From positions 3,472,001 to 3,536,000 of the forward strand of contig NZ_VFOZ01000001.1 in the NCBI RefSeq assembly GCF_006716425.1: DNA of 64,000 nt, read 5' to 3'. The stretch comes from Actinoallomurus bryophytorum. GTDB lineage: Bacteria; Actinomycetota; Actinomycetes; Streptosporangiales; Streptosporangiaceae. Numbering within the stretch: the first letter of the stretch is position 1; each line of letters begins with the position of its first letter. Of the stretch, positions 548-49,753 are shown one piece after another. The notes under the pieces were generated by a model, which was given only the letters and a program-made list of their open reading frames with translations, was not told where the DNA came from and ran no database searches. The position numbers were made by a program, and so were the translations under genes.

Positions 548-571
548 GCTTCGACGTTAGGCGGATGTGGA

Positions 572-1049: not shown

Positions 1050-1058
1050 CGCGTCCTC

Positions 1059-1283
1059 TCACAGCTCCTGTGCTCCTGACTCCGATCCTGCATCCCTACC
1101 AGGGAGAGTGGACTCACCGCTGCGGTTGGCGAGGAAGAACTGGGCAGGGCCGGGATATCGGTTGATCAGGATCTTCAGCTGTTGCACCTCGACCACCTGT
1201 GTGGCGCCCGTGAAGTGCATGCAGTCGAGCATCGCGTAGAACTCCGCCAGGGAGCGTTGCAGGCGCTCTTCCAGCGGGCTCAC
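1059..1283 (-). CDS. Small hypothetical protein of the regulatory operon
   Basis: A 74-residue protein whose GTG start at 1283 overlaps the stop of the BldC-like gene as GTGA and has GGGAGACGTGGA upstream. An alternative GTG lies at 1301. The N-terminal half looks helical (SPLEERLQRSLAEFYAML); the C-terminal half is polar. I recognise no domain. Translational coupling on one side and a 9-bp gap to the GntR gene on the other place it firmly in the operon. Confidence 0.55.
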   Translation of the reverse strand: MSPLEERLQRSLAEFYAMLDCMHFTGATQVVEVQQLKILINRYPGPAQFFLANRSGESTLPGRDAGSESGAQEL

Positions 1284-1666: not shown

Positions 1667-2103
1667 CCGGCGTCCTCGATCAGACACTCGCACCAGACGA
1701 TCTTTCCGCCGGTCTCCAGCACTACAGATCCCCACCCCTTCGATAGCGATTCGACTAGCGCCAGCCCGCGGCCACCTTCGTCTGCCTTCGCCGCCGTCCG
1801 CTTGAGAGGAGGCGTGCTGCTTACGTCCCACACTTCGATCAACAACGTCTCCACTCGTCTGGAGACACACAGGTAGATCGGGTTCACCTTGCCGATCAGG
1901 CAGCTGTAGTCCGGATCCTCGTCGGTGATGCCTGTCTTGGTGACCGCGTTGGTCACCAGCTCGCTGACAAGGAGCTCGACCGTGTCAGCCATCGCTTCCA
2001 ACCGCCACGTGCCGAGCAGCCAACGCGTATACGAGCGCGCCTGACCGACCGTGCGCGGCAACGCCGGCATCAACATGCAGTTCGACCGTGGGGGTTGGGT
2101 CAT
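1663..2103 (-). CDS. ATP-binding protein, anti-sigma regulatory factor (HATPase_c_2) family
   Basis: Taking the ATG at 2103 with GAGGCGG upstream, the product is 146 residues. It shows the GHKL fold of actinobacterial anti-sigma-factor kinase-like proteins: the N-box helix ELLVSELVTNAV, a beta strand LLIEVWDVS (G1 region) and a glycine-rich EGGRGLALVESL (G2). The family binds ATP and often sequesters sigma factors or anti-anti-sigma factors. In actinomycetes a single-domain copy is commonly linked to BldC/XRE-type regulators, as here. It is the first gene of the leftward operon and faces the XRE gene across a 164-bp divergent promoter region. Confidence 0.8.
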   Translation of the reverse strand: MTQPPRSNCMLMPALPRTVGQARSYTRWLLGTWRLEAMADTVELLVSELVTNAVTKTGITDEDPDYSCLIGKVNPIYLCVSRRVETLLIEVWDVSSTPPLKRTAAKADEGGRGLALVESLSKGWGSVVLETGGKIVWCECLIEDAG

Positions 2104-2206
2104 CGTCCGCCTCGCAACCTGCGACTCCTGGCAGTGGCGGCCTGAACGATCCGCCACATGTCCAAACAGGCTCGCGTGTTAATCGGGACCTCTCACGGGC
2201 AGCCAA

Positions 2207-2225
2207 GGGACGTCTAGGGACGTCT
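2207..2225. promoter_or_regulatory. Tandem GGGACGTCT direct repeat in the divergent promoter
   Basis: Two perfect 9-bp copies of GGGACGTCT at 2207-2215 and 2217-2225 are spaced 10 bp apart, 43 bp before the start of the XRE gene. The arrangement matches the pair at 572-590. They probably lie near the promoter of the XRE gene. Confidence 0.45.
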
Positions 2226-2267
2226 TGTGTTAGCGTCGGTCACACCCGCGCGGCTTGGAGGATCGCG

Positions 2268-3008
2268 GTGAATGAGATCTTGAGGCGTGCGTTCGCTGAG
2301 GCGGGCGTCACAGAACAGGATGTAGCCACACACCTCGGCGTGGACACGAAGACTGTCCAGCGCTGGCTGGAGGGTCGGCGACCGTACCCTCGACACCGGA
2401 ATGGGTTGGCGAATCTCCTGGGCATCGATCAGACAAGAATCTGGCGTGCTGAAGCGCGGGTCCTGCGGGTTTCGCATCCTGGCGAGGCCGAACTCGAAGC
2501 GTCCTACGCCCACCGCTGGGCTGTGCCCCGTGGCGTGTGGGATTGGCTCTTCAGCCAGGCTGAGGAGGAGATCGGAGTCCTCGTCTACTCCGGGCTATTC
2601 CTTGCCGAGGATGTTGGGCTCCTCCGCCTTCTCGGGGAGAAGGCGCGTGCTGGAGTGTGCGTACGAATTTTGCTTGGCGATCCCGACAGTCCTGACGTCG
2701 CCAAACGCGGCGTGGATGAGGGCGTGGATGACGCCATGGCAGCAAGAGTCCGAAACGCTCTCGTCCTCTACCAAGTACTTCGCGGGGTTGAGGGTGTAGA
2801 GATACGTCTACACGAGTCCATCCTCTACGCCTCGCTATACAGGGGCGACGACGACCTCCTCGTCAACCCGCACGTGTACGGCATTGCTGCTTCACACGCA
2901 CCTGTCCTTCACGTGCGGCATGTCACGGATGGAGACATGGCCAGCACATACCTCGCTAGTTTTGAACGAGTATGGTCGTCGGCCAAGCCCGTCAAGCGAT
3001 CGACCTGA
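2268..3008 (+). CDS. XRE-family regulator with C-terminal PLD-like sensor-type domain
   Basis: This 246-residue protein starts at the GTG at 2268 after GGAGGATCGCG. Residues 1-55 are an XRE helix-turn-helix (ILRRAFAEAGVTEQDVATHL, then KTVQRWLEGRRPYPRH). The remainder resembles the actinobacterial DUF5919-type domain, which has a phospholipase-D-like fold: strands VLVYSGLFLAE and CVRILLGDP, then a degenerate His motif (EIRLHESILYASL). The canonical HKD Lys/Asp pattern is not intact, so ligand sensing is likelier than catalysis. It is expressed divergently from the anti-sigma-type operon. Confidence 0.75.
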   Translation: MNEILRRAFAEAGVTEQDVATHLGVDTKTVQRWLEGRRPYPRHRNGLANLLGIDQTRIWRAEARVLRVSHPGEAELEASYAHRWAVPRGVWDWLFSQAEEEIGVLVYSGLFLAEDVGLLRLLGEKARAGVCVRILLGDPDSPDVAKRGVDEGVDDAMAARVRNALVLYQVLRGVEGVEIRLHESILYASLYRGDDDLLVNPHVYGIAASHAPVLHVRHVTDGDMASTYLASFERVWSSAKPVKRST

Positions 3009-3024
3009 AACAACCTCCGGTCGT

Positions 3025-3351
3025 TCAACCTGCACTCTCCTCCGCCTCCTGAGCAACCACCAGGCAAGCTGAAACGGTCGCCGTCCAGAGCGCATTTTGA
3101 TGCACTTGGTAATGCAAGGTGCTCCTTGGCCCACCTGTGCGTGGCAGCGGTGTGAGCAAGCCGGCGGAGACAAGTCGCCGCATGACGGGACGGACGAGGC
3201 TGTCGCTCAGGGTTGTTTCCGATGCGATCATCCTGGTGGTCACAAACGCCGTCCCGGTGGGTGAGCGCCGGTTGATGGCCGTCACAACGTCGACGACGAA
3301 GCTGTTCCCGAAGAGGGCGTAGGACCTCTTCCGCTGTGTCTCCTGCTCCAT
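3025..3351 (-). CDS. Winged-helix transcriptional regulator
   Basis: Starting at the ATG at 3351, this 108-residue protein has a winged-helix core: FVVDVVTAINRR, then TRMIASETTLSDSLVRPVMRRL as the helix-turn-helix, then a wing (GLLTPLPRTGGPRSTLHYQV). It resembles ArsR/PadR-size one-domain regulators. It is divergent from the base-hypermodification-type gene at 3413, with a perfect palindrome in between, so it very probably controls that gene and itself. A longer upstream start would run through the divergent promoter and is not favoured. Confidence 0.7.
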   Translation of the reverse strand: MEQETQRKRSYALFGNSFVVDVVTAINRRSPTGTAFVTTRMIASETTLSDSLVRPVMRRLVSAGLLTPLPRTGGPRSTLHYQVHQNALWTATVSACLVVAQEAEESAG

Positions 3352-3369
3352 CGGGCGCACACGTGTATT

Positions 3370-3395
3370 GTGACGCGTATAGCGAAACGCGTCAC
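3370..3395. promoter_or_regulatory. Perfect 9-bp inverted repeat between wHTH and aGPT-type gene
   Basis: GTGACGCGT at 3370-3378 and ACGCGTCAC at 3387-3395 form a perfect inverted repeat with an 8-nt spacer, in the 61-bp divergent promoter. A second, imperfect pair (CGTATAGCG and CGCGATACG) overlaps it. It is the expected operator for the adjacent winged-helix regulator. Confidence 0.6.
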
Positions 3396-3412
3396 GCGAT
3401 ACGGAGACCGAG

Positions 3413-4540
3413 ATGACGATGCCGGTTGCCTCGGACCTAGAGAACGCATGCCAGCTTCCGCTGCTTGACGACGCTGCACTCGGACAGCGGAGGGAGGCGC
3501 GAGCTATCCCCATAGACGTCGTGATCGCAGGGCGGCGGCTGCACCCGACACAGGTGTTTGACACCTACTGGCGGTTTGCTGCAGCTCGCCAAGCTCTTTA
3601 CGAGGCGCGTCTACGAGGTGCGCCGCCGCCGTGGACGGATGACTCGATCTTGCGGCGCCACAGGTTCACCAACTGTTATCGGGCGTCCGATCGGGTGAGT
3701 CAGTATCTGATCGGCCAAGTGTCGTACGCGGGATCGCAGGACCCTGAAGAGGTCGTTTTCCGGACACTGCTATTCAAGGTGTTCAACCGTATATCGACCT
3801 GGGAATATCTAACAGCGGAGCTTGGTGAGATATCCTGGAAGGGATACAGCTTTGCGCTCTATAATCGCGCCCTAAGTAACGCGTTCTCCCGAGGTGAGAA
3901 ACTCTATTCCGCCGCTTACGTCATTCCGCCGCCTGCCCTCGGCGAGGATCGAAAGCATAGCAATCATCTCCGCCTGCTGGAGTTGATGATGACTACGGGG
4001 ATCGCCCGCAAAGTTCTCTGTGCTGGCTCTCTGTGCGGTGCCTTCGAGGTGCTACGGTCATATCCAGCTATTGGTGATTTTCTTGCCTATCAATATACTA
4101 TCGACCTAAATTATTCAGCGATCTTTGACTGCAGTGAGATGGAATTTGTCGTTCCTGGACCCGGAGCGCGAGACGGGATCCGAAAGTGTTTTGGTGCTGC
4201 CGCAAATGGCATCGAGGCGGAAATAATTCGATACATGGCAGATTATCAAGAAGAACACTTCGAGCGCCTCGGCTTGCGCTTCGAAGGTCTTCGTGGGCGT
4301 AGACTACAGCTCATCGACTGTCAGAACCTCTTCTGTGAAGTCGATAAGTATGCACGGGTCGCACATCCGGACGTGCAGGGGCTTAGCGGCAGAACACGGA
4401 TAAAGCAACTTTTCAGGCCGGTCGTCGATCCAGTGCCGGCCTGGTTCCCTCCGAAGTGGGGGATAAACGACACAGAGCAGAACAGCATATGTCACGTGAA
4501 AGCATCAGGCCCTGACCAAAGAACAGGAGGGCGTGACTAG
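3413..4540 (+). CDS. DNA base-hypermodification family protein (aGPT-PPlase2/HMUDK-helical type)
   Basis: A 375-residue protein whose conserved blocks match the family named alpha-glutamyl/putrescinyl thymine pyrophosphorylase (aGPT-PPlase) or nucleotide-kinase-domain protein, described by Iyer and colleagues in hypermodified-base phages and bacterial conflict loci. Visible blocks: YWRFAAARQALYEARLRG (52-69), FTNCYRASDRVSQYLI (85-100), FRTLLFKVFNRISTWEYL (116-133), a helix-hairpin-helix-like VVPGPGARDGIRKCF (246-260) and LQLIDCQNLFCEVDKY (298-313). There is no P-loop, so it is not itself the 5-hydroxymethyl-dU kinase. In phages such proteins act on a pyrophosphorylated hydroxymethyl-uracil base in DNA; a bacterial role is inference. 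Codon use is more A/T-rich than in the core genes. It is followed with 1-nt overlap by a small partner gene. Confidence 0.7.
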   Translation: MTMPVASDLENACQLPLLDDAALGQRREARAIPIDVVIAGRRLHPTQVFDTYWRFAAARQALYEARLRGAPPPWTDDSILRRHRFTNCYRASDRVSQYLIGQVSYAGSQDPEEVVFRTLLFKVFNRISTWEYLTAELGEISWKGYSFALYNRALSNAFSRGEKLYSAAYVIPPPALGEDRKHSNHLRLLELMMTTGIARKVLCAGSLCGAFEVLRSYPAIGDFLAYQYTIDLNYSAIFDCSEMEFVVPGPGARDGIRKCFGAAANGIEAEIIRYMADYQEEHFERLGLRFEGLRGRRLQLIDCQNLFCEVDKYARVAHPDVQGLSGRTRIKQLFRPVVDPVPAWFPPKWGINDTEQNSICHVKASGPDQRTGGRD

Positions 4541-4788
4541 TGAGCTCTAACGATCTCACGGTAAATCCGCCATCCGCGCATGTTGTCGTTAGTGTTGCGA
4601 CCGCATTGGAACGGCTGGCTATCAGAGTTACACGTGATCTCGACGTTGACGCCCAGGAAGGTGTTCCTCCGGAGGATCCATACTGGGCCAGCACTATCGC
4701 CGATGTCGCAGCATACGCCCGGGAATGCCTTGCAGTACTTGATGACCCCAGCGTAGTCGCGGTACTGACAGCGAAGGTGGATCGTTAA
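4540..4788 (+). CDS. Small hypothetical protein coupled to the aGPT-type gene
   Basis: An 82-residue acidic protein. Its GTG start at 4540 overlaps the preceding TAG by one base, with CAGGAGG nine bases upstream. It looks largely helical (VSVATALERLAIRVTRDL and TIADVAAYARECLAVL). I recognise no domain. Its stop codon overlaps the convergent thymidylate-synthase-like gene by four bases. It is probably a partner or accessory subunit of the upstream protein. Confidence 0.6.
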   Translation: MSSNDLTVNPPSAHVVVSVATALERLAIRVTRDLDVDAQEGVPPEDPYWASTIADVAAYARECLAVLDDPSVVAVLTAKVDR

Positions 4789-5627
4789 CTACCTGTTTCG
4801 CTGACCAGCAATGCGGATTCCGAGGCCCGAGCATTGAGCTGGGCGATCCTATATTTCGGTGAATCAACGGCGCCGACGCCAGCCACTATCATCAGCTGAC
4901 CAGGTTGCAAATCGGTCATATCACATATGTATCCGAGCAGGCGGCCAAGGCCAAGGTAATTACCATATCCGCGTTCGATGAGATGCTGGCGACGATAGTG
5001 TGCCACCAAGTGGAGAACGTTGCGTTCCAGTTGAAAAGAGCAGAAAGATAGGCACGGGAATCCCATTGGGGAGTTGTCTACACCTGGGGCGTAGACATGG
5101 ATCGGACTACTTGCGTCTCTGTGTTGAGTTTCGTCGGGGCCAGCCTCATCGCTTGATGCGTGAGGATCTGAGATATTCATTTCGTAGCGTGCAGACTTCG
5201 GTCCCGGAGTTGACAACTCAGTATTAAGCCTGCTTATTGTCTGAGCAAGCTGATCGTGTTCGCCTTTGGACGAAGGATGGGAAATAATCCGGCTGAAATA
5301 GGTGCCACGTTGATTGTTCCGGTGCAGCCTCTGCAGGGTCGGATACATGTTCCGGTAACGCTGCGTGAGATGAGCGGGGTCCCGAGAGCTTCGGGCGAGC
5401 TGTATTGGGAAAATCGTGTTAGCGACGGTCTCGACCGAGGCTTGTGGCAGCTCTTGTGAGAGCTCATCTATTGCGGCTCGAATGTCTGGATCTTCTGTCA
5501 GCGGGTCATCGATACAAGTGACGAGATGATAGAGATGGCGTCCTGGTGCGGAGTTCACCACATTGACAGTCTCCAGCCAGCTGTCAGAAATCGTCATACC
5601 GTGAATCATCTTACGTGCTAGCGTCAT
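4785..5627 (-). CDS. Thymidylate-synthase-superfamily-like protein
   Basis: This 280-residue protein starts at the ATG at 5627 after GGGGGAG. The C-terminal half follows the thymidylate synthase layout: a Pro-Cys pair at 191-192 where TS has its catalytic cysteine, FQ at 198-199, an arginine-containing YRRQ segment (211-214), a glycine/Asn turn at 220-224 and LQPGQLMIVAG (240-250), matching the TS GLKPGEF-GD region. The N-terminal part has GTYFSRI and DQLAQTISRL, like the TS YG and DQL-L motifs. The usual N-I after the PF motif is shifted and the terminal GD/HxY residues are not conserved, so standard dUMP methylation is doubtful. TS relatives make 5-hydroxymethyl pyrimidines for hypermodified DNA, which fits the neighbours. 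Function is inferred. Confidence 0.55.
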   Translation of the reverse strand: MTLARKMIHGMTISDSWLETVNVVNSAPGRHLYHLVTCIDDPLTEDPDIRAAIDELSQELPQASVETVANTIFPIQLARSSRDPAHLTQRYRNMYPTLQRLHRNNQRGTYFSRIISHPSSKGEHDQLAQTISRLNTELSTPGPKSARYEMNISDPHASSDEAGPDETQHRDASSPIHVYAPGVDNSPMGFPCLSFCSFQLERNVLHLVAHYRRQHLIERGYGNYLGLGRLLGYICDMTDLQPGQLMIVAGVGAVDSPKYRIAQLNARASESALLVSETGS

Positions 5628-5662
5628 TACTCTCCCCCAAAGTTCTGTTTGTGGAAATGGGA

Positions 5663-6619
5663 CTATTCAATCCAGCGGCGTGCTAGGCCGCTATGACGTT
5701 CCTCAACCTGGACGTCAAACGCCCATTTATTTACTTGGCTGTTCGCAGATCCGAAAATTTCGACTCGACTGGGAACGATCTGCTCAACCTCTAGAATTAA
5801 TGCGTTTGATAAACCTTGTGCAGAAGTGGTGGGCGTTGATGTGTCCGTCGGTGACGGCATGGCTGCAGAGGCTGGCATGACACGGAAAGCCTCCGGTGGG
5901 TCGATGCTCGCTTTAGCGTCATTGGTCACCGTAACAATGAGCCGATCGCCAAGATGAACGGTTAGCTCAGTACCAGCGAAATTTTTGTCTATTACCCAAA
6001 CGTCCGAACTGCTAGACGTAGGCGGAAGTGCGGCGTTGTCAAGTCTCGCCTTGATCTTTTTGGGTGGAACTCTTGCCCACTGTCGCGCCAAATCTCGACT
6101 CGCGAGTCGAAGGTTAGGTAGGTGTCTGATGGTCGAGCGATAAGACGTGCCAAGTAGCAGAGCGAGCATGTAGACGTCGTCTGGGCTCTGTGGCCTCTCC
6201 AAGCCAAGGCGGCCCAATGCGGTAAGTACTGCTCTGCGTGGCATCAGAAACCAGGACGCGAATGATTCGGCGACCTTTTCCTCATCAGTCCAGCCGGACC
6301 AGCCTTTGTCTGGAGGATCGAGATTCTCGTCAGTTGTACTTCGGTGACCAAGGCGATGATGTCCGAGCTCATGTGCCGCTGTGTGACGCTGCGCAGCGTG
6401 AGGAAGACCGTTATTCACAAGGATGCCAGGGCGAGACCTGAGCTCATTGATATATGCACCAAACTGGCGTGGCATAGGACGCCACATTAGAACTACCTCG
6501 GCGTCACCGATTGCGCTGTAAATGTCGATCGGCGGCACGGCAGTATCGACTCCAAGGTCACCATGGGCCTGGGCAGCGGCTAGGTGAGCAAGACGATTCG
6601 CCTCCCTCCAGGTTGTCAT
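5663..6619 (-). CDS. ImmA/IrrE-family metallopeptidase
   Basis: A 318-residue protein with a zincin motif HELGHH at residues 83-88, flanked by HTAAHELGHHRLGHR, and a downstream helix EEKVAESFASWFLMPR that supplies the third ligand. This is typical of ImmA/IrrE proteases, which cleave partner XRE repressors in mobile elements. The C-terminal 120 residues are a separate, less recognisable region. It overlaps the XRE gene by four bases (ATGA), the usual toxin- or phage-style repressor/protease pair. It probably relieves repression at the palindromes near 7276-7358. Confidence 0.85.
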   Translation of the reverse strand: MTTWREANRLAHLAAAQAHGDLGVDTAVPPIDIYSAIGDAEVVLMWRPMPRQFGAYINELRSRPGILVNNGLPHAAQRHTAAHELGHHRLGHRSTTDENLDPPDKGWSGWTDEEKVAESFASWFLMPRRAVLTALGRLGLERPQSPDDVYMLALLLGTSYRSTIRHLPNLRLASRDLARQWARVPPKKIKARLDNAALPPTSSSSDVWVIDKNFAGTELTVHLGDRLIVTVTNDAKASIDPPEAFRVMPASAAMPSPTDTSTPTTSAQGLSNALILEVEQIVPSRVEIFGSANSQVNKWAFDVQVEERHSGLARRWIE

Positions 6620-6972
6620 CGTCGCTGTTTCCGTCGCTCCGTGTCGGCCGAGAAGCGAAGATACTGCGCGAAGCGAACCACTTCAGCGCGATCATCGTCG
6701 GTCAAGTCGGTTACCGCCCGCGCAAGTGCGTGAACATCCTCCCCGGTATCGTCCTCGCCTAGGAGATAGCCGACCGGATGCATATACAGGCGAGAGAGCT
6801 TGCGTAGCTCAAGGCTGTCTAGCTTGCGTACGCCCCGCTCAATATCAGAAATCGCCGATCGAGGAATTCCGGTTCTATCGGCAACATACTGCTGAGAAAG
6901 GTTCAAATACTCGCGAACATTACGTAGGCGGGCACCCAGCTGCACCCACTCGGAGTCTTCGTTGCCGGTCAT
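6616..6972 (-). CDS. XRE-family repressor paired with ImmA/IrrE protease
   Basis: This 118-residue protein has an HTH_3 domain at residues 12-66 (LRNVREYLNLSQQYVADRTG, then RSAISDIERGVRKLDSLEL). A helical tail with ALARAVTDLTDDDRAEVVRF follows. The start overlaps the end of the acyl carrier gene by four bases and the stop overlaps the protease start. It is most likely the repressor of the divergent promoter at 7257-7381. Confidence 0.85.
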   Translation of the reverse strand: MTGNEDSEWVQLGARLRNVREYLNLSQQYVADRTGIPRSAISDIERGVRKLDSLELRKLSRLYMHPVGYLLGEDDTGEDVHALARAVTDLTDDDRAEVVRFAQYLRFSADTERRKQRR

Positions 6973-7256
6973 GCCCCTTCACCAACTCGACGCCCTTGCT
7001 CTGCTTCTTGGACGAGGTGGTGGACGATGGCGGCGAAGTCGCGGACTGATCGTAGGCACTCCGCTGTCTCTGGCGTAGTCGGCAGCTGAACGCCGCACCT
7101 TTGTTCCACACGCACGACGACCTCTACAGCCAACAGTGAATCGATGGGCAGATCCTCACCTTCAGCTGCCAAGCGGTCCCTCAACGCATCCGGCGTGATG
7201 CCCTCCTCCTCGGCGAGTAGCTCGATGATCAAGTTTTCGATGGCCTGGCGATCCAT
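6969..7256 (-). CDS. Acyl carrier protein-like
   Basis: This 95-residue protein starts at the ATG at 7256 with a strong AAGGAGG. It has the four-helix carrier-protein layout with Asp-Ser-Leu at 39-41, where Ser40 is the phosphopantetheine attachment site, followed by VEVVVRVEQRCGVQLP. It is not next to fatty-acid or polyketide genes. Instead it leads the operon containing the XRE repressor, the protease and the TS-like gene. A carrier for an acyl or amino-acid group delivered to a base or protein is one possibility; this is inference. Confidence 0.8.
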   Translation of the reverse strand: MDRQAIENLIIELLAEEEGITPDALRDRLAAEGEDLPIDSLLAVEVVVRVEQRCGVQLPTTPETAECLRSVRDFAAIVHHLVQEAEQGRRVGEGA

Positions 7257-7275
7257 CGGGCACCTCCTTAGATCT

Positions 7276-7290
7276 GTCGGATTTTCCGAC
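7276..7290. promoter_or_regulatory. Operator palindrome GTCGG-N5-CCGAC (copy 1)
   Basis: GTCGGA and TCCGAC face each other around TTT, 20 bp before the acyl carrier start. An equivalent palindrome lies 67 bp away at 7342-7358, on the MazG side. Both share the core GTCGG-N5-CCGAC. Confidence 0.55.
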
Positions 7291-7341
7291 GACTCTTGTC
7301 CCATCATAGAACGCATCCGTGTACTCTGTCGAGACAGCGGT

Positions 7342-7358
7342 TGTCGGAAAACCCGACA
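7342..7358. promoter_or_regulatory. Operator palindrome TGTCGG-N5-CCGACA (copy 2)
   Basis: TGTCGG (7342-7347) and CCGACA (7353-7358) lie 24 bp upstream of the MazG gene start, just before its AGGAGG site. With the first copy they bracket the divergent promoter and are good candidates for binding by the XRE repressor encoded at 6616-6972. Confidence 0.55.
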
Positions 7359-7381
7359 TCGACCTTGAGGAGGCGCTCAGC

Positions 7382-8248
7382 ATGAAGCTCCGTGAGTACC
7401 AAGAGGCCGCTGGCCAGACGGACCAGCGCTCCGGCCGCGATCTCGCTGACATCGCAGTACACCTGCTTGGCATGATCGGCGAGGCTGGCTCGGTTGCAAC
7501 CGAGTACAAGAAGCTGCTGCGCGACGGCGCCGCCCACGTAGCCTGGAAGGCTCGTGTCCGCGAGGAGCTGGGTGATGTTCTCTGGTACACGGCGACGCTC
7601 GCCAGCAAGCTTGATCTTGATCTCGAAGACGTTGCCCGCGCAAATCTTGAGAAGACGAGGAACCGATGGCTCAGGGCGAGCTCCGAGCCGCTGGACGACG
7701 ATTTCCCGGAAGACGAGCAGCTTCCTCGTGACGGCAGATTTGAGTTCATTGCCTCGACTAACGATGCCGGCAGTCCCACAGTCCGCGTCCGTTACGGAGG
7801 TCAGTGGATCGGAGACCCGCTGACCGATGCCTCCCACGTTGACGACGGTTACCGCTTCCATGACGTTTTTCATCTCGCACACGCGGCCGCGCTCGGCTGG
7901 TCGCCGGTCACACGCAAACTTCTCGGACGGAAGCGTCGCTCGGATCCGGGCATCGATGAAGCGGAGGACGGTGGGCGCGCCATCGTTATCGAGGAGGGCG
8001 TAGCCGCGATGGTCTTCGCCTACGCGACGAGCCACGATTACCTCCGCGGCATTGCCCGCCTTGACTTCGAGCTGCTCGATGGCATCCAGAATCTAGTGGC
8101 CCCGCTGGAAGTTGGCATACGCAATGCTGCCAACTGGGAGCAGGCCATTCTCACGGGTTACGACGCTTGGCGTCAGCTACGGGATGGCAACGGTGGAACG
8201 GTGCTGCTGGACATGCGACAACAGAGTCTCACTGTCGTCCCTACGTAA
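7382..8248 (+). CDS. MazG-like nucleotide pyrophosphohydrolase with C-terminal extension
   Basis: Starting at the ATG at 7382, nine bases after AGGAGG, the product has 288 residues. Residues 1-97 are a MazG-type all-alpha NTP pyrophosphohydrolase: GEAGSVATEYKKLL (33-46), EELGDVLWYTATL (61-73) and VARANLEKTRNRW (84-96), with the acidic magnesium ligands present. Residues 118-260 form a second domain (FHDVFHLAHAAALGWSPV at 159-176, IEEGVAAMVFAY at 203-214), which I take to be the MazG_C domain seen in base-modification gene sets. The family hydrolyses (d)NTPs to monophosphates, which fits clearing or supplying modified nucleotides. It is transcribed away from the acyl carrier/XRE operon under shared palindromes. 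Confidence 0.8.
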   Translation: MKLREYQEAAGQTDQRSGRDLADIAVHLLGMIGEAGSVATEYKKLLRDGAAHVAWKARVREELGDVLWYTATLASKLDLDLEDVARANLEKTRNRWLRASSEPLDDDFPEDEQLPRDGRFEFIASTNDAGSPTVRVRYGGQWIGDPLTDASHVDDGYRFHDVFHLAHAAALGWSPVTRKLLGRKRRSDPGIDEAEDGGRAIVIEEGVAAMVFAYATSHDYLRGIARLDFELLDGIQNLVAPLEVGIRNAANWEQAILTGYDAWRQLRDGNGGTVLLDMRQQSLTVVPT

Positions 8249-8307
8249 GCGGGTCTCAGAGTTGGTCTCATTTATAGTCCAGGTCAAGCCGTAACCGTCG
8301 ATGTGCG

Positions 8308-8375
8308 CCAAGATCCGGCGACGTCCCGAGACACGCTGGCGGACCTGCGCAGACGCGGACGTCGCCGGACCTCGG
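8308..8375. repeat. Long inverted repeat (hairpin) of junction unit copy 1
   Basis: The arms at 8308-8326 and 8357-8375 (19 nt each, two mismatches, core TCCGGCGACGTCC) are separated by 30 nt. Copy 2 at 9401-9472 keeps the pairing although the bases have diverged. That suggests selection on the structure, for example as a recombinase arm or single-strand-active site. Confidence 0.5.
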
Positions 8376-8403
8376 CTGTGATCGACGGAATGGCGTTGGG
8401 CTA

Positions 8404-8465
8404 ACTGCTAATGCGGTTTGGGCTTACCGTCCATCCGGGGTTCAAATCCCCGAGCCTCCGCACCA
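8404..8465 (+). other. 3' remnant of tRNA-Ser(GCT), likely attachment site (copy 1)
   Basis: The stretch contains the anticodon loop and stem (CTGCTAATGCGG), variable arm, T arm (CGGGGTTCAAATCCCCG) and acceptor 3' strand CCTCCG with CACCA, but no D arm or 5' acceptor strand. It cannot be a working tRNA. Such 3' fragments mark where an element integrated into a tRNA gene. Given the orientation, the element lies to the left and the reconstituted tRNA is outside the window. Confidence 0.7.
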
Positions 8466-8471
8466 CCTGCA

Positions 8472-8510
8472 CCCTCTCCGGTGAGCTAATCACTGGAGGG
8501 GGTGTTTTTG
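8472..8510 (+). terminator. Rho-independent terminator after tRNA-Ser remnant
   Basis: The arm CCCTCTCCGGTGA (8472-8484) pairs, after a GCTAA loop, with TCACTGGAGGGGG (8490-8502), followed by five T residues. It is presumably the original tRNA terminator carried along in the junction repeat. Confidence 0.7.
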
Positions 8511-8763
8511 GTTTCGTGGTCTCATTCGGTCTCCCAGACGGCCGAGTCGATGAGTGCGCTGGCGTCGCGGACCGGTGGAGAGGTGGCGTGCGTGTACCGC
8601 TCGGTGGTCGGTGGGCGAGTACATGCCGCGGCCTGCCATACGATCTGATGACCTTCGAGGAGCGCGACCAGGTCGACGCCGAGCGCACCGACGCGATCCG
8701 AGAGAGACCGTGGCCAGCCTGCCCGAGGCGGCCCGGTATCCGACGCTAAGGAGCCCCCCAACT

Positions 8764-9255
8764 GTGAAGATCATCGACCGCGTCAAGGCGTACTTCCAAA
8801 AGAAAGAGGGACACGACCGCTCGAGCGGCGACCCGCTCGACGGAGCGGGCGACCCCGTCCCGGCGCAGGGCGACGGCGCCAGGCACGAGCAGAGCCGCGA
8901 TGACAAGACGCCCGCGGTGTCCACAGTCCACAAGACGCCGGAGCCCGAACCGGCCACAGAGCCTGCCGTAGAGCCGGTCCCCGATTCGATAGCGGAGCCG
9001 GCCATAGAGCCGACAACTGACTCGGCCGTGGAGCCGGCCACCGATCCGATCGCAGAACCGGCCACGGAGCCGGCCGTGGAACTGACAACTGGCCCGGCTC
9101 CGGCTACACAGCCGGCCCCCGATCCGATCGCGGAGCCGGCCACAGGGCTGACCACGGCGCCCGGCGCGTGCCCGCGTTGCGGCGCAACCGGCGACGCGCC
9201 TTGCACAACTCCGTCCGGCAAGGCCACGAAGAACCACAAGGGGCGCGAGCAATGA
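8764..9255 (+). CDS. Pro/Glu-repeat protein with C-terminal zinc ribbon
   Basis: This 163-residue protein starts at the GTG at 8764, with AAGGAG 11 bases upstream. A short charged N-terminus (KIIDRVKAYFQKKEG) leads into a low-complexity region, about residues 58-136. There EPATEPAVEP-like units with DPIAEPAT and DSIAEPAI recur with a period near 10-12. The C-terminus is a zinc-binding module CPRCGATGDAPC, then TPSGK and HKGR, as found in small actinophage and actinobacterial zinc-ribbon proteins. The role is unknown; DNA or RNA binding is plausible. A degenerate copy of the repeat segment (8981-9072) occurs at 14137-14226. Confidence 0.6.
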   Translation: MKIIDRVKAYFQKKEGHDRSSGDPLDGAGDPVPAQGDGARHEQSRDDKTPAVSTVHKTPEPEPATEPAVEPVPDSIAEPAIEPTTDSAVEPATDPIAEPATEPAVELTTGPAPATQPAPDPIAEPATGLTTAPGACPRCGATGDAPCTTPSGKATKNHKGREQ

Positions 9256-9346
9256 TCAGCGGTTCTCCGGACTCCCGGACGGATCCGCGAGTCGACACCG
9301 TACGTCTGACGCACAGACCCAGGCGGTCTCTGCCAGACACGTCGGT

Positions 9347-9495
9347 GGTCCTAGAACTGGTCTCATTTGTGGCCGAGATCAAATAACCGTCGTTGATATA
9401 CGCCAAGGTCCGCCGACGTTTCGAGATACGCCTGCTCACCCGCGCAGACGCAGATGTCGACGGACCTTGGCGATGAACGGCGGAGGATCGTTGGG
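9347..9495 (+). repeat. Junction repeat unit, copy 2 (left part)
   Basis: This segment matches 8263-8405, with point differences throughout. It continues at 10465 after the inserted IS element. It carries its own hairpin (arms 9401-9419 and 9454-9472, CGCCAAGGTCCG type, three mismatches, 34-nt spacer). Confidence 0.65.
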
Positions 9496-9499
9496 CTAG

Positions 9500-10464
9500 A
9501 CGAGTAGTTCCGAATGCGGGCCGGTGTGCGGGCATGAAGAGAGGGCGTCCAAGATCATGTTGTGACGCAAGACCTGGACACCCTCTTGACCGCACTCTAT
9601 GTGAAAATCGATGACGAGCTGGAAGGAACCCGAAGGCTGGGCAGGCCACCGGGACTGACCGACTCCGAACTCTTGTGCCTGGCCGTTGCCCAGGTGCTGC
9701 TGGGTTTGCTTCGGAAGCCCGCTGGATGCGGTTCGCTCACGCTCACCTGGCCGAAATGTTTCCTCACCTGCCAAGACGGCCCGGCTACAACAAGCGGCTG
9801 CGTGCGGCGTTACCGCTGGTCAAACAGGTGATCCAGGCGCTGGCCGCCGACACCGCCTTCTGGTTCGACAACGTCTGGATCACCGATTCGACCCCGGTCG
9901 AACGCGGTCGCTCCCGCCCCACCGTGATGCGCTCGAACCTGGCCGGCTATGGCTTCTGCCGCTCCCATTCGCGGTTCTACTGGGGCCTGCGGCTGTTCCT
10001 TGTCTGTACGCCGACCGGGATGCCGATCACCTGGGCGCTGGCCAGCCCCAAAATCGACGAACGCGACGTGCTGACCGCCATGTTCGACCGCGACCCGCAC
10101 CTGACCACCGGCCGAGAAGGCCTGCCGCTCATCGCCGACAAAGGCTTCGCCTCCCGCCAGTTCGAAGCCGACCTGGCCCTACGCGGGATCACACTGCTGC
10201 GGCCCTCGTTCAAACGCGAAAAGCCCCGGCCCGGCGAACCGCTGCTCAAGTCGGTCCGACAACTGATCGAGTCGGTCAAGGACACGTTGAAAGGACAGCT
10301 CAGCCTGGAACAACACGGCGGGCGGACCTTCGAGGGCGTAGCAATCCGCGTCGCTCAGCGGATCTTGGCCATGGCCACTGCGATCTGGCACAACCACCAC
10401 ACCGGCGCACCCGTTACACGGTCACTGACCGCCTTCGACCACTGACCACATCGGAACTACTCGT
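9500..10464 (+). mobile_element. IS982-family insertion sequence (965 bp)
   Basis: The element has perfect 14-bp terminal inverted repeats (ACGAGTAGTTCCGA at 9500-9513; its complement at 10451-10464). It is flanked on both sides by CTAG (9496-9499 and 10465-10468), the apparent 4-bp target duplication. One transposase gene fills it. Removing it and one CTAG restores a continuous second copy of the tRNA-Ser junction repeat, so the insertion postdates the duplication. Confidence 0.85.
9562..10445 (+). CDS. IS982-type DDE transposase, expressed through a possible -1 frameshift
   Basis: The N-terminal part reads from the GTG at 9562 (TQDLDTLLTALYVKIDDEL, LTDSELLCLAVAQVLLG). The rest continues one base back in another frame (FASEARWMRFAHAHLAEMFP onward). 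Joined, it gives about 294 residues, the normal family length. The acidic catalytic residues appear in WITDSTPVE, LIADKGFAS and the Glu-containing segment SLEQHGGRTFEG. The switch point is the slippery heptamer GGGTTTG at 9702-9708, in the correct phase for -1 slippage. A single-base deletion would look the same, so the copy may be active by programmed frameshifting or a recent pseudogene. Confidence 0.8.
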
Positions 10465-10670
10465 CTAGCCGCTAATGCGGTTTGGGCCTACCGTCCATCC
10501 GGGCTTCAAATCCCTGAACCTCCGCACCACCTGGACGCTCTCCGGTTATCTGATCACTGGAGGGGGCGCTTTTGGTTAGTGGTCTCATTTCACGTCTCGT
10601 TCCGTCCCCCAGAGGGCCGATCCGTTGAGGGTGCTGGCATCGCGACCTGGGGTGAGGCGACATGTGTGCA
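10465..10670 (+). repeat. Junction repeat unit, copy 2 (right part)
   Basis: This segment continues copy 2 after the IS: tRNA-Ser remnant, terminator and the GTGGTCTCATT stretch, matching 8400-8605. Similarity fades after about 10670, where sequence leading into the four-gene cargo begins. Confidence 0.6.
10469..10529 (+). other. 3' remnant of tRNA-Ser(GCT), copy 2 (degenerate)
   Basis: It matches the copy at 8404-8465 from GCTAATGCGGTTTGGG to CCTCCGCACCA. Its T stem has decayed (GGGCTTCAAATCCCTGA), so it is an older, non-functional fragment. It marks a second junction of the same kind. Confidence 0.65.
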
Positions 10671-10941
10671 CCGTCCTCCTGTCGTCATTACGCCCGGTAC
10701 CAGGGGATTGGACGCCGCATCGCCCCCCACGCATGTCATGACCCGTCGTCCTGCATTGGCACGCGATGAGCCTCAGCGATCAAGGAGCAACAACGGTCAC
10801 TCGTTGGAAACTTCAACGGGCGGACCGATTTTAGTCTTTAGGTCTGTCTCCTTTGGGGACGGTCGTTCAGATCTGCTGTGGGTAGAGAGTTATTCATTCA
10901 AGACGTACACTTGCTGGAGGTACTAGTAGGAGAGGTGTCGT
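10530..10941 (+). other. Gene-free stretch before the four-gene cargo
   Basis: It holds the end of junction repeat 2, with a terminator at 10536-10574 (CGCTCTCCGGT pairing with TCACTGGAGGGGGCG, then CTTTT). After that comes about 270 bp without a convincing gene, becoming A/T-rich towards the first cargo gene, whose ribosome site is GTAGGAGAG. Confidence 0.5.
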
Positions 10942-11916
10942 TTGAGAAAGTTGGCCAAGATTCTCGGCGAGGCAGACACCGTCCTAGCTTTGACAATTTC
11001 GATTATTGCCGGTGTTCTTGGTCTGACTTCTGTAACCTCGGCATCCGTGACCCAGAATGCCATACTTGTTACATTGGGAATTTTGTCGATCTCAATTCTT
11101 CGCGATCGGTGGCGTCGAAGCGATGCAATAGAGCGGACCGTTTCTGTTTTGCAGAACTTCACAAGCGCTGCAACTGAAATAGAGCAAGTTAAATCAATCC
11201 TGGAACAAGTGCAGGTAGCTCTAGCCAGTCAATCGCTCACGCACATACTCACAACCGCCGAGCAAGTGGCGAGCGAGCACACGCAAGCACGTGAAAGTAG
11301 TGGAAGATGGCTTTTCCGTGGAGGTACGGGAACGTACATCAGAGCTGTAACGCTGCCCGGCCTTATTAAGTCCGCAAGGCGGGAACGACGCCCACTTCAT
11401 GTCCGCTTGGAAATCCTCGACCCTACAAACGAAGATGTTTGCGAGCGCTATGCTCGCTTTCGAAGTTCGGTTTCCCCTCTTCCTGATGGAACTGGTCAGG
11501 TCTGGACTACCCAACGGACCCAGCTCGAGTCATATGCAACACTGCTTGCGGCTTGTTGGTACCAGGCCGATTATACATTGCTAGACATTAAAGTAGGACT
11601 CGTCGGCACGATGGGCATCTTCAGATACGATCTATCGGATAGTCGGCTAGTTATCACCCAGGATGATGGGTTTGCGATGGTCGTTCCGCAGGAGGGCCTC
11701 CTCTATTCCTCGTATGAGACTGAGTTGAGAACCAGCTTCGAGCAGGCCAGGCACGTTCAGCTGGATGCCGCAAAACAGATCCGCCTAAGCAGCGAGCCTA
11801 CGGTCGGCGAAGCCGTTGATTTATTTAAAGCTATCGGTGTTCCCCTGGTTGTCTCGCATGACCTTATAGCTGACATTATTACTAAGGCAATCCATGCTCA
11901 GAATCCCTACATATAA
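10942..11916 (+). CDS. Two-TM membrane protein with cytoplasmic sensor-like domain
   Basis: This 324-residue protein starts at a TTG at 10942 after TAGGAGAGG. Two hydrophobic helices (about 12-32 and 39-54) are followed by a likely coiled coil (62-115). A globular domain then begins SGRWLFRGGTGTYIRAVTLP and contains RLEILDPTNEDVCERYARFR. This domain vaguely recalls the C-terminal sensor domain of the XRE protein at 2268-3008, with its strand, Asp-Pro and Arg-rich loop. Two-TM proteins with a soluble sensor are common membrane components of bacterial conflict systems, but I cannot name the family. The end overlaps the next gene by 23 bases. Confidence 0.6.
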   Translation: MRKLAKILGEADTVLALTISIIAGVLGLTSVTSASVTQNAILVTLGILSISILRDRWRRSDAIERTVSVLQNFTSAATEIEQVKSILEQVQVALASQSLTHILTTAEQVASEHTQARESSGRWLFRGGTGTYIRAVTLPGLIKSARRERRPLHVRLEILDPTNEDVCERYARFRSSVSPLPDGTGQVWTTQRTQLESYATLLAACWYQADYTLLDIKVGLVGTMGIFRYDLSDSRLVITQDDGFAMVVPQEGLLYSSYETELRTSFEQARHVQLDAAKQIRLSSEPTVGEAVDLFKAIGVPLVVSHDLIADIITKAIHAQNPYI

Positions 11917-12529
11917 GGCTATAAGAGTTCGCGAGCTTATATTAGCCCGTGACTCTGGTTTTGTACTGAGAGAAGCTGGTCGGGAGTTTATAAGGTCGGG
12001 CGCCGTTCCCGTGCGACACCCACTGGGGTTTTTGTGCTTTCCGATGCATCGGACGGCAACGTTTGGGATTTGTCTCCACGTGTGGTCAGACCAGTTACAA
12101 ATGAGACCATCAACCACTTCGCAAATTCATGCCCACAGTTGGGATCTGATCAGCTATGTAGTGGCAGGCGCACTGAGGAATGACCTCATTTCGATCGTCC
12201 CTGACCTGGTTAACCCCACTCATCGGGTATGTACCGTGCGTTCTGGTGACGGAGGTGACGAGGTGTGTCCAACAGACCAACTGGTTAACTGGAGACTCGT
12301 TGGGTCGGAACGCATAGCGAGCGGGCAATTTTATGACCTAAGCTCCGGATTCTTCCATACTACGACCGCACTCGGTGAAGCGGCCACGCTCGTTATGGCA
12401 GAGAACCAAAACCTAACTCCAGAGTTAAGCTTAGCTGATAAGTGCATACAGTCACACAAGGTAACTAGGCAACTCGGTGGGCCTACAGATATTAAGATCG
12501 CAGCGCGAACCTTGGGGATCGACCGTTGA
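11894..12529 (+). CDS. Cupin-like protein
   Basis: This 211-residue protein starts at an ATG inside the end of the previous gene. The central region (77-170) looks like a cupin: QIHAHSWDLISYVVAGALRN gives the His-x-His and Gly turn of motif 1, and GFFHTTTALGEAATLVMAE gives the later His. The metal ligands would be His79, His81 and His155. Cupins include dioxygenases and isomerases, so the reaction is open. Translation is coupled to both neighbours, and base composition is A/T-rich compared with the core. Confidence 0.5.
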   Translation: MLRIPTYKAIRVRELILARDSGFVLREAGREFIRSGAVPVRHPLGFLCFPMHRTATFGICLHVWSDQLQMRPSTTSQIHAHSWDLISYVVAGALRNDLISIVPDLVNPTHRVCTVRSGDGGDEVCPTDQLVNWRLVGSERIASGQFYDLSSGFFHTTTALGEAATLVMAENQNLTPELSLADKCIQSHKVTRQLGGPTDIKIAARTLGIDR

Positions 12530-12555
12530 CCTACTTGCGAGGAGACTGCACCAAT

Positions 12556-13425
12556 ATGCCTACATTCCTCCAGGAAGCTCGCAGGGTGGCTATCGGTGTG
12601 GCTGAAGCAGCAGGAGACCTCCTTCGATCGAAAGCAGAACGGCGCTTTCATGTATGGCCGAAGAGCGATCGTGATTTGGTTACAGAACTCGATTATGCTG
12701 CCGAAGAACTAATTTTCAAGCAACTGAGGAATGCTTACCCGGATCATCAAATCATCTCTGAGGAAGCCGGAGTGCTGCCAGGCGTCGGCCAGTGGAGCTG
12801 GTTAGTCGATCCATTGGATGGAACCAATAACATTGCACTTGGCCTGGCAATATATACGGTCGGTCTGAGCCTGTGTAAGGGCAGCCTTCCTGTAGTATCG
12901 GTTGTTCACGATCCAGTTTCTAGGCGAACTTGGTCAGCAGTTCGTGGCCAAGGTGCGTATCTAGGGCGAGATCTCCCGCTGAAACGGCGCTCACGCGTTG
13001 GTAGCCGAGAAGTACTTGCTTGGAGCCAGGGGTACGGAGTGAGTCCCCAGGATTCGACGGCCGTTGCTCTCAAGCTGATTCTTGATAGAGAAGCGACCCG
13101 AGTTTTGAGGCTTTGGGCTCCTCTCATGGCCTGGATAATGCTGGCACGGGGTGATCTTGATGGGATAGTTGGGTATCGGATCGGAGAAATTGATTTGCAT
13201 AGCGGGGCTCTTATTGCAACCGAAGCCGGGTTGAAGGTCTGCGACCCTACAGGATTTCCATTCGACTCGGAATTTCGCAGTCTACAAGAAAATCGCTCTT
13301 TGATTGCAGGAGCTAACGATCGAATTCCCCGGCTAGTCGAGCTGTGGTTGGCTGCTGATAAAATTCGCGCCCATATCGACGATTTTTGGAGAGACTATAC
13401 TCCAGTTAAGAGTAAGCCATTTTAA
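12556..13425 (+). CDS. Inositol-monophosphatase/CysQ-family phosphatase
   Basis: The ATG at 12556 with GAGGAG upstream gives 289 residues; a TTG at 12526 overlapping the previous stop is also possible. All family motifs are present: Glu69-Glu70 in IISEE, WLVDPLDGTNN (82-92) for the metal-binding Asp residues, and EIDLHSGALIATEAG (211-225). It should be a Mg-dependent, Li-sensitive phosphomonoesterase for inositol phosphate, PAP or a similar sugar/nucleotide phosphate. In this A/T-rich cargo it sits between a cupin and a RES-like protein, so a nucleotide-type substrate is plausible; this is inference. Confidence 0.85.
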   Translation: MPTFLQEARRVAIGVAEAAGDLLRSKAERRFHVWPKSDRDLVTELDYAAEELIFKQLRNAYPDHQIISEEAGVLPGVGQWSWLVDPLDGTNNIALGLAIYTVGLSLCKGSLPVVSVVHDPVSRRTWSAVRGQGAYLGRDLPLKRRSRVGSREVLAWSQGYGVSPQDSTAVALKLILDREATRVLRLWAPLMAWIMLARGDLDGIVGYRIGEIDLHSGALIATEAGLKVCDPTGFPFDSEFRSLQENRSLIAGANDRIPRLVELWLAADKIRAHIDDFWRDYTPVKSKPF

Positions 13426-13473
13426 TTTGCTCTTCTGCAAGACATGGAAGTCGACTGAGGAGCGTTGAATAGT

Positions 13474-14082
13474 GTGAATCTTTGGAGAGAAATAGACCTT
13501 GCGGCCTTTCCGCTTACCACCCTAAAACCCCAGATGCCACTCTATAGAATTTACCCGCGCCGGTGGCCCTTGTCTGGGATATCTTCCGCCGTCAGTGAGC
13601 CTGGGATCCCTGGCTGGTTCTGTGGTGAAGGGGATCACCGTTTTGACTTCCCTGTCGGTGATGCCGGAACGTGCTATCTATCGACCTCTGAGTTAGGCGC
13701 CGCTATTGAGGTTATTGGGCGTTCTAGTGGTCGTTTTGAAATCAAAGAGCGAAGGCTGGCGACGCTTAATGTCAGAGATCCTCTTGTAGTACTGGACTTG
13801 ACTTCTTATCGAAATCCGACAAGCGGCGGCTTGATTAATAGTATCCTTTGTCGGCAAAAGTTGATCTCGGGTAGGCCATCCTATATTGTTAGTCAGAGTT
13901 TTGCTCACTTTGTATTTGGGAATAACATTTCAGGAATCAAATGGCTATCCTGGAGGGATCCCGAATATCGGTCCGAAAACTTAGCGATTTTTCGCTCTGA
14001 GGCTGGCGCTGATGACGGCACATTCTTTGATATAACGTGCACGGCTGATATTAAGCGGACACTTATCGAAAAAGCAATTTGA
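13474..14082 (+). CDS. RES-domain-like protein (possible NAD+-degrading effector)
   Basis: Taking the GTG at 13474 with GAGGAG 11 bases upstream gives 202 residues (a TTG at 13465 is an alternative). The layout matches RES toxins: MPLYRIYPRRW with Arg25, HRFDFP (55-60), CYLSTSELGAAIEVIG (67-82) with Glu79, and a late IKWLSWRDPEYRSENLAIF (155-173) with Ser159. RES proteins are NAD+ phosphorylases or hydrolases usually paired with an Xre antitoxin. None is adjacent here, and the protein ends a four-gene set instead. Activity is predicted from pattern only. Confidence 0.55.
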   Translation: MNLWREIDLAAFPLTTLKPQMPLYRIYPRRWPLSGISSAVSEPGIPGWFCGEGDHRFDFPVGDAGTCYLSTSELGAAIEVIGRSSGRFEIKERRLATLNVRDPLVVLDLTSYRNPTSGGLINSILCRQKLISGRPSYIVSQSFAHFVFGNNISGIKWLSWRDPEYRSENLAIFRSEAGADDGTFFDITCTADIKRTLIEKAI

Positions 14083-14136
14083 AGGATCAAATATCGCGAT
14101 GATGGTGGCGGGTAGAGCAGTCCGACGTACTGATGC

Positions 14137-14226
14137 GTCCGATCACGGAGTCGGCCACCGAGCCGACAACTGACTCGGCCGCACAGCGGGCCACCGATCT
14201 GATCGCGGAATCCGCTACGGAACCGG
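14137..14226 (+). repeat. Degenerate fragment of the Pro/Glu-repeat gene
   Basis: It closely matches 8981-9072 of the repeat-protein gene, including an identical run around CCGACAACTGACTCGGCCG. It has no start, zinc ribbon or surrounding gene. It marks the right boundary of the cargo and abuts the broken phosphotransferase gene, so recombination occurred here. Confidence 0.7.
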
Positions 14227-14232
14227 ACCATG

Positions 14233-14662
14233 GGCGTTCCTTGTTGACGGATAGATTCTCGTCGGCGAAGAACCCTCGGCGCTCGAACGTCACCGCGCCG
14301 ATTCCCGCCACGACACGCCCCACCTCGGCGCCGAGATCAGCCAGGGACCCCTCGCTGAACTCAAGGCCGGAAAGCACACGGCTGAGCGGCGTCCCCGCCA
14401 CGTACTCCAGGACCATGGCCGGGCGAGCACCATCGCCGGACGCCATGACGAGCAGCGTCTGCGGGACGGGTACATGCCGAGAAGCCGCCGCCATGACCGC
14501 GGCTTCGACGGCCGGGGCCGCGCCACCGAGCCGTACGACGACCTGGCCATCGGTCAGCGTTAGCAGGCACGTCTCATGCGAGAAGCCGCCCGCCAACCTT
14601 GATGTTCCCAGCACAGCGCTGCCAAGCGCCGCAGCAATGCCGTGAATCTCCTCTGGCCGCAT
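14233..14662 (-). pseudogene. Truncated aminoglycoside-phosphotransferase-like gene
   Basis: From the ATG at 14662 about 143 codons of an APH-family (PF01636-like) kinase can be read: GGFSHETCLLTLTDGQVVVR for the nucleotide loop and strand, VPVPQTLLV, then AMVLEYVAGTPLSRVL. The gene stops being kinase-like after SVNKERPW, where it runs into the reverse complement of the Pro/Glu-repeat fragment. The catalytic HxD loop and the metal-binding Asp are missing. It was cut by the island boundary and should be inactive. Confidence 0.75.
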
Positions 14663-14823
14663 CGGCCCAGTCTGGTGCCACCAAGCCGTACGGCGGACCC
14701 CGAACTCCAATAGCGGCGTAGCGCAGTTCCGGACCAGCGCCATTCGGCGAAGGTTGTCGGCGTCGTATGGAACACTCGCCGTCGCAGTAAATGGTCGACC
14801 AAGCGGTAACAAAGGAGCCTCCC

Positions 14824-49747: not shown

Positions 49748-49753
49748 CAGGTC

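Follow-up and report, generated by a model that had tools for sequence, protein, structure and literature searches.

Organization of the locus

The window analysed here (the whole stretch, 64,000 nt, G000:C1:3472001-3536000) belongs to the genome of Actinoallomurus bryophytorum, designated G000. Its left part carries the right portion of an integrated element (element 1), two junction units that each contain the 3' part of a tRNA-Ser(GCT) gene, and what appear to be the remnants of two further elements (elements 2 and 3). Seven relatives in the genus (G001 to G007) were compared; L numbers denote individual loci, L022 being the left end of element 1 in G000. The features around the junctions are the following, in window positions:

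1-8403, no strand: right part of element 1, whose left part lies at G000:C1:3464024-3472000 (81-bp repeat; int, xis and FtsK genes; GC content)
8252-8274, plus strand: P arm of element 1, with GGTCTCA sites at 8252 and 8264 (12-bp spacing), matching in class and spacing the P' arm found at L022:2138/2150
8295-8388, plus strand: strong hairpin separating the P arm from the core (fold z -4.92; arms of 32 nt, 81% complementary)
8404-8461, plus strand: tRNA-Ser(GCT) 3' piece 1, core of the right attachment site (attR), identical to the intact gene at 58/58 positions; the exact repeat of the left site (attL) extends to 8484
8469-8505, plus strand: predicted element-borne intrinsic terminator (fold z -7.56)
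8517-8526, plus strand: P' arm of element 2, reduced to a single GGTCTCA site and shorter than in attL by 12 bp (one repeat unit)
8525-8647, minus strand: remaining 3' end of the element 2 integrase gene (58.5% identical to Int residues 422-462 by tblastn, E 1.5e-11)
9347-9370, plus strand: P arm of element 2, one intact site (9359) and one decayed (repeat comparison, arm motif)
9387-9483, plus strand: hairpin of element 2 (fold z -6.49)
9496-9499, no strand: left CTAG target duplication, read from the sequence; unit 1 has CTAA there
9500-10464, plus strand: insertion sequence (IS) of the IS982 family in the core of junction 2, with a transposase open reading frame (ORF) at 9675-10445 (NF033520, 145 bits, cut-off 130)
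10465-10468, no strand: right CTAG target duplication, read from the sequence
10468-10525, plus strand: tRNA-Ser(GCT) 3' piece 2, 92.7% identical to the intact gene over 55 nt
10525-10580, plus strand: decayed terminator of unit 2 (fold z -1.43; 19 of 200 shuffled sequences are as stable)
10580-10589, plus strand: P' arm of element 3, one intact GGTCTCA site (motif and alignment)
10600-10688, minus strand: remaining 3' end of the element 3 integrase gene (matches Int residues 433-462 by tblastn in two frames, E 2.6e-6)

A first-pass annotation had placed the repeated unit at 8263-8605 and at 9347-9495 plus 10465-10670. The repeats are real and not due to chance, but the units start at about 8252 and 9347: identity is 75% between 8252-8287 and 9347-9382 (36 nt), 77% between 8296-8403 and 9391-9498 (108 nt) and 88% between 8401-8513 and 10465-10577 (113 nt). 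As it had also noted, both tRNA pieces lack the 5' half; they extend from the anticodon loop to the 3' end. The second copy is indeed split, for a reason that had not been given, the insertion of an IS982 element. DNA matches to this IS carry the IS982 annotation, and all features of the family are present: a transposase, terminal inverted repeats (20-nt perfect inverted arms, CTAG included) and a target duplication.

The same annotation had proposed integration into a tRNA gene with the element lying to the left. The left flank agrees with this: an intact tRNA-Ser(GCT) gene (G000:C1:3463991-3464081, about 7.9 kb left of the window) and a tyrosine integrase gene are both present directly to the left. 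The strong matches in the whole genome are this gene (E 1.7e-75), unit 1 (the query) and the split unit 2 (E 8.7e-45 and 2.3e-20), the next best having an E value of 0.13. A tRNA-like repeat family was rejected, the strong matches being the intact gene and the two units only, and the remnants do not belong to an unrelated repeat family. At gathering thresholds Rfam identified no family at either unit and only the tRNA at 49675. Each unit is a whole attachment junction composed of P arm, hairpin, tRNA 3' core, terminator, P' arm and int 3' end. Since a P' arm and an integrase 3' end lie to the right of each tRNA piece, each unit corresponds to a P-core-P' junction between two elements, which indicates that a third element used to follow.

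Element 1 resembles an integrative and conjugative element

Element 1 measures 16,380 bp, from the tRNA-Ser(GCT) gene to position 8404, with an exact 81-bp direct repeat at its ends (L022:2024-2104 and 8404-8484, 16,380 bp apart). It encodes a tyrosine integrase of 462 aa (PF00589, 95.6 bits) whose gene ends 72 bp from the tRNA-Ser(GCT) gene on the opposite strand, and behind it an excisionase-type protein (TIGR01764, 46.3 bits, cut-off 28.8). It also encodes an FtsK/SpoIIIE protein (PF01580, 43.8 bits, cut-off 24), which resembles plasmid TraB with a score of 148 bits on NF041214, far below the cut-off of 800. NUDIX, HD, IrrE-type, XRE-type and MazG genes are located further along. Element 1 carries a tRNA-adjacent integrase, direct-repeat attachment (att) sites at both ends and an excisionase, all of which are criteria for actinomycete integrative and conjugative elements (AICEs).

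It is very improbable that element 1 is instead a prophage or a phage satellite. Related integrases are encoded in 898 of 50,697 phage records (all below 60% identity), and a helix-turn-helix protein (1280-1870) shows a weak match to a terminase subunit, below cut-off (E 0.0014). However, no structural phage gene passed the cut-off in the Pfam scan of element 1, which covered 26 chosen ORFs (a selection of the six-frame ORFs), and the FtsK/TraB-like, NUDIX, HD and XRE-type genes are such as those described for AICEs in PMC3218068.

Probable successive integrations at a single tRNA gene

The right side of the island includes the following features:

8764-9255, plus strand: gene Z, cargo of element 2, encoding an EPAT-repeat protein ending CPRCG...CTTPSG...HKGREQ, with homologues in relatives located beside or downstream of tRNA-Ser or tRNA-Arg
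10878-14082, plus strand: cargo of element 3, low in GC (52% for 10526-14232), including inositol monophosphatase family and RES-domain genes and unknowns
14140-14232, plus strand: fragment of a gene-Z copy at the right island edge (78% over 82 nt to G005 gene Z, E 1.8e-12; translation), its limits outside 14145-14226 being set by eye
14233-14812, minus strand: APH-family gene, apparently cut at the island edge (PF01636, 30.9 bits on ORF 14087-14812; profile positions 3-121 of 239)

The GTG start of gene Z was picked by eye in an ORF that opens at 8554, and this ORF (8554-9255) matched no Pfam or NCBIfam family. The APH-family gene appears truncated, judging from its partial profile match. About 1.1 kb of element 2 is left, plus the IS982 in its core, and the element 3 remnant reaches about 14,232. 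The GC contents of elements 1, 2 and 3 are 62%, 65% and 52%, against 70% to the right of the island (14233-64000).

The locus is very probably a site-specific accretion array, in which element 1 and the decayed elements 2 and 3 are lined up at tRNA-Ser(GCT). The elements share one tRNA, tRNA 3' repeats (8404 and 10468) lie between them, and int remnants are found behind each. In the mechanism that we propose, one integrase family would recombine the attP of a circular element with the part of the tRNA-Ser(GCT) gene extending from the anticodon loop to the 3' end. Each integration would rebuild the tRNA with element-borne sequence and terminator and would shift the earlier elements to the right. 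Element 1 (16,380 bp) would be the last arrival. Element 2 would have been shrunk by internal deletion to its two ends and gene Z, and an IS982 would have inserted into its right core. Element 3, which abuts a truncated chromosomal gene, would retain the end of its integrase gene, its low-GC cargo and a small piece of gene Z.

A perfect versus an imperfect tRNA piece, the decay of the terminator (fold z of -6.90 in attL, -7.56 in unit 1 and -1.43 in unit 2) and the shortened P' arm fit element 1 as the newest and element 3 as the oldest. The arrival order would be element 3, then 2, then 1, as expected if newcomers enter the intact tRNA. The attL/attR repeat, the presence of int and xis, the order of the parts, their decay and the separate origin of units 1 and 2 are established at the sequence level; the role of the hairpins as terminators is predicted from their folding.

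Units 1 and 2 display the same order of parts and 75-88% identity, in keeping with a single unit that was duplicated in tandem in the chromosome and then diverged, only one element ever having integrated. The first-pass annotation had indeed called the unit duplicated. However, the P side of unit 2 shares 94% and 91% identity with the P sides of G005 and G002, two other species of the genus, and just 71% with that of unit 1 (gap columns excluded), which indicates that the units arrived with different elements. An int 3' end is present in each unit, and the divergence of the right sides is uneven (identity of 91% between attL and unit 1, 84% between attL and unit 2, 79% between units 1 and 2). 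Tandem duplication was rejected on the P-side identities and we give it hardly any credence. The second event that the annotation had invoked for the next unit is borne out, unit 2 coming from a separately acquired element, and its general interpretation (scars of integration into a tRNA gene, with the element to the left) is supported once two corrections are applied.

The locus and its integrase in relatives

In four of the seven genus relatives (G001, G002, G003 and G007), an intact tRNA-Ser is followed by a different terminator, and their DNA similarity to the locus ends at the tRNA end. The window is syntenic again from about 32.3 kb in G002, G003 and G007, and from about 20.8 kb, in altered order, in G001. 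The element-type terminator is present in G005, G006 and one contig of G004. Integrase matches were found in 26 of the 120 family genomes searched, G000 included, at a threshold of E <= 1e-80. The eight most similar integrases among the matches listed (L072-L079, 66-69%) all have a tRNA-Ser(GCT) within about 0.5 kb. Five full-length integrases at 54-56% (L080-L084) are associated with tRNA-Lys(TTT) and two at 58-59% (L098, L099) with tRNA-Thr(CGT), about 0.7 kb away in L098. The tRNA scan of 28 integrase loci called none in 5. Parallel stacks of att cores occur in G083 (three within 4.4 kb) and G005 (L057). A contig scan with Int as query gave no confirmed locus, and the N-domain of the integrase was found in 3 of the 396 genomes of a phylum-wide search.

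Several observations weigh against an accretion array headed by a mobile element. G002 carries a gene Z-P arm-tRNA-Ser 3' piece (L053:8230-9315, G002:C16:38230-39315) located 29 kb from its intact tRNA-Ser. This piece has a native-type terminator and sits beyond the region matching the tRNA-Arg of the window; simple accretion fails to explain it. At the right island edge, neither a tRNA piece nor a native terminator was found, which suggests that attR of element 3 has been lost and makes this limit rest on GC content and a gene-Z scrap of less than 100 bp. An exact TGGTCTCATT is located on the minus strand at 12100-12109, in the low-GC cargo of element 3, with no junction seen around it. Element 1 can probably excise, an ability deduced from its sequence. 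The replication initiators of AICEs are RepSA, RepAM or Prim-Pol. No Rep or primase-polymerase was above cut-off among the 26 chosen ORFs, one Replic_Relax match remaining below it (E 0.0087). For this reason element 1 is called AICE-like rather than a full AICE and may be mobilisable only; an initiator of a novel type is possible, since several ORFs match nothing.

The tRNA-Arg(ACG) of the window (49675-49748) is probably a second island site. Its right flank varies among relatives, and gene Z copies are found there in G002, G003 and G007.

Comparison with known arrays

Accretion and decay of the AICE type are already known in kind. According to PMC9513070, AICEs and defective AICEs have accreted at tRNA-Arg in a Streptomyces population, leaving decayed remnants. 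The similarities are that several elements encoding different integrases occupy one tRNA and are separated by direct repeats, that an old remnant lacks traB, and that decay has left a partial integrase and repeats. The present array differs in its tRNA (tRNA-Ser(GCT)) and its genus, and one of its remnants is reduced to about 1 kb, with an IS inserted in the att core. PMC3218068 also describes tandem AICEs (Fean5518/Fean5534 at tRNA-Lys, Sav3708/Sav3728 at tRNA-Arg). These likewise lie in tandem at one tRNA, include HD, Nudix and XRE genes, and have tRNA remnants deemed usable sites. There, however, the elements are AICEs in tandem, Fean5518/5534 excising singly or jointly, whereas here one complete-looking element is accompanied by two remnants. 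The array is a clean fossil record of related elements captured again and again at one tRNA, in which the decay of the junctions can be followed.

Arm sites

The cores are flanked by short direct repeats, mostly in pairs spaced by 12 bp: GGTCTCATT at this locus, GTTGCAGTT in most relatives and GGTGAGCA in G117. Both ends carry the same arm class in all five elements where both were seen (G000, G109, G117, G064 and G083), the P' side of G083 having a single arm copy and not two. A repeat of at least 8 of 9 bases at spacing 12 occurs in 119 of 161 full-length integrase loci, compared to 1-21 loci for each of the other spacings from 9 to 30 and to a mean of 9.0 (maximum 16) in first-order resampled sequence. 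Class motifs at this spacing were found in 124/161 loci, in 0-3/161 after resampling and in 4/161 on the opposite strand.

By analogy with the general model of arm-binding integrases (PMC8138268), these repeats are putative binding sites of the Int N-domain. They overlap or abut the int 3' end and adjoin a terminator, and could for this reason be regulatory or terminator parts. We consider this unlikely: the same class flanks the core, about 2-16 kb apart, in the five elements with both ends and also in pCM32, and the class tracks a residue of the Int N-domain in 110/110 loci of the two main classes.

The inferred attP is present in its entirety, in the order of an arm pair, the tRNA 3' core, a terminator, a second arm pair and int, on pCM32, a circular integrative plasmid of Saccharopolyspora endophytica (NZ_KM260754.1). 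The Int of pCM32 is 38% identical over 97% of the query, and two 12-bp-spaced GTCTCAGT arm pairs surround a tRNA-like 3' core (serine-type by eye) and terminator. The plasmid differs in its core and in its annotated primase-polymerase, none being found in the 26 chosen ORFs of element 1. Similarly, in PMC3203893 the attP of Cluster K1 mycobacteriophages has arm-site pairs around a tmRNA core with a terminator between core and arm, and an arm base is linked with Int residues 17 and 19. That link concerns four phages, inverted P3/P4 sites and small consensus changes, whereas here the pairs are direct and whole classes differ across 110 loci and several tRNA targets. For Cluster J phages, PMC3706429 reports no systematic site difference matching the N-domain difference.

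Integrase residue 36 and arm class

The N-domain residue that follows WHG (Arg36 in the G000 integrase) varies with the arm class, as first spotted on the initial loci. Together with fresh loci these amount to 94 distinct loci, of which 65 were classified, none of them combining Arg with GTTGCA or Trp or Tyr with GTCTCA; the other 29, with no exact pair or a short frame, were left out. Among 84 further loci, 48 were classified (44 Arg/GTCTCA and 4 Trp/GTTGCA, none contrary) and the other 36 lacked an exact pair of any class defined by then; the query for this set was an Arg-type N-domain, so that the Trp side is weakly tested. In the pooled set, where motifs were relaxed to five bases and two classes were added after the data had been seen, 124 of 161 full-length loci were classified. 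All 62 GTCTC loci have Arg and all 48 GTTGC loci have Trp (47) or Tyr (1), one more GTTGC locus having an unread residue. The minor classes comprise 2 GAGCA loci with Phe and 4 GAGCC loci with Ala. The exceptions are 6 TTGTC loci and 1 GCTCA locus with Arg in other motif contexts, which indicates that Arg alone is insufficient. Of the 37 unclassified loci, 25 have Arg.

Of the N-domain columns with an occupancy of at least 80%, that of residue 36 alone fully separates the main classes, the next best reaching 87%. The Ser(GCT), Thr(CGT) and Arg(CCT) elements each include both main arm classes. A tree built without the N-domain implies 9 changes of arm class and 7 of the residue. The supported independent pairs agree in 5/5 cases (6 pairs on the best tree regardless of support), giving a sign test p of 0.0625, strong but not formally significant, and several long branches leave parts of the tree unsure.

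On balance we slightly favour the view that the residue after WHG sets the arm repeat that is read. Elements would change this residue and all their arm sites together, independently of the tRNA, and stacked units would be addressed or ignored according to the class of the incoming integrase. If true, arm recognition in this branch of tyrosine integrases would be predictable from sequence and testable by a single exchange, and the arm class would tell which stacked elements can excise together and which cannot. This rule outweighs the array in importance and is the part that deserves a bench test. Among the open-licence papers listed, none was found by title or abstract start to state such a rule, and the bare repeat GTTGCAGTT retrieved no related work by title among the matches listed.

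Two other formulations were discarded. A two-residue rule (WHG+1 and RRH+1) lost its RRH+1 part, the fresh loci L143 and L180 having RRH-R with GTCTCA. A context-free equation of Arg with GTCTC was rejected by six WHARVP/TTGTC loci and one YEARVW/GCTCA locus. In eight full-length Arg loci (L168, L169, L172, L173, L175, L183, L184 and L187), no tRNA was seen at the int 3' end and no arm pair of the known classes was present. Searched by sequence against solved structures, the N-domain matched just B-raf kinase (E 1.1 or worse), and it matched no Pfam family.

An integrase clade (L192, L205, L287-L290) in which WHARVP replaces WHGxV carries TTGTC arm pairs and constitutes a further arm class. 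A tRNA-Ser(GGA) lies beside 5 of its 6 members.

Other features of element 1

The last gene before attR is the following:

7319-8248, plus strand: MazG and MazG_C cargo gene (PF18722, 245.8 bits; PF03819, 30.1 bits)

The hairpin at 8295-8388 is the probable terminator of this gene. In the same element, the protein at 3413-4540 contains a full-length 5-hydroxymethyldeoxyuridine (5-hmdU) DNA kinase helical domain (PF18723, 379.5 bits), and a carrier-protein-like gene lies at 6969-7316. Together with MazG/MazG_C, these are possible cargo for nucleotide or DNA modification. An IrrE-type peptidase (5663-6619; PADLOC capP, 46.3 bits) lies beside an XRE-type regulator (6616-6972), a pair that resembles those controlling element excision or defence. 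Finally, the integrase (L022:2154-3542) contains a long cysteine-rich stretch and its Pfam match spans only positions 60-169 of 172; this stretch is probably an insertion in the catalytic domain.

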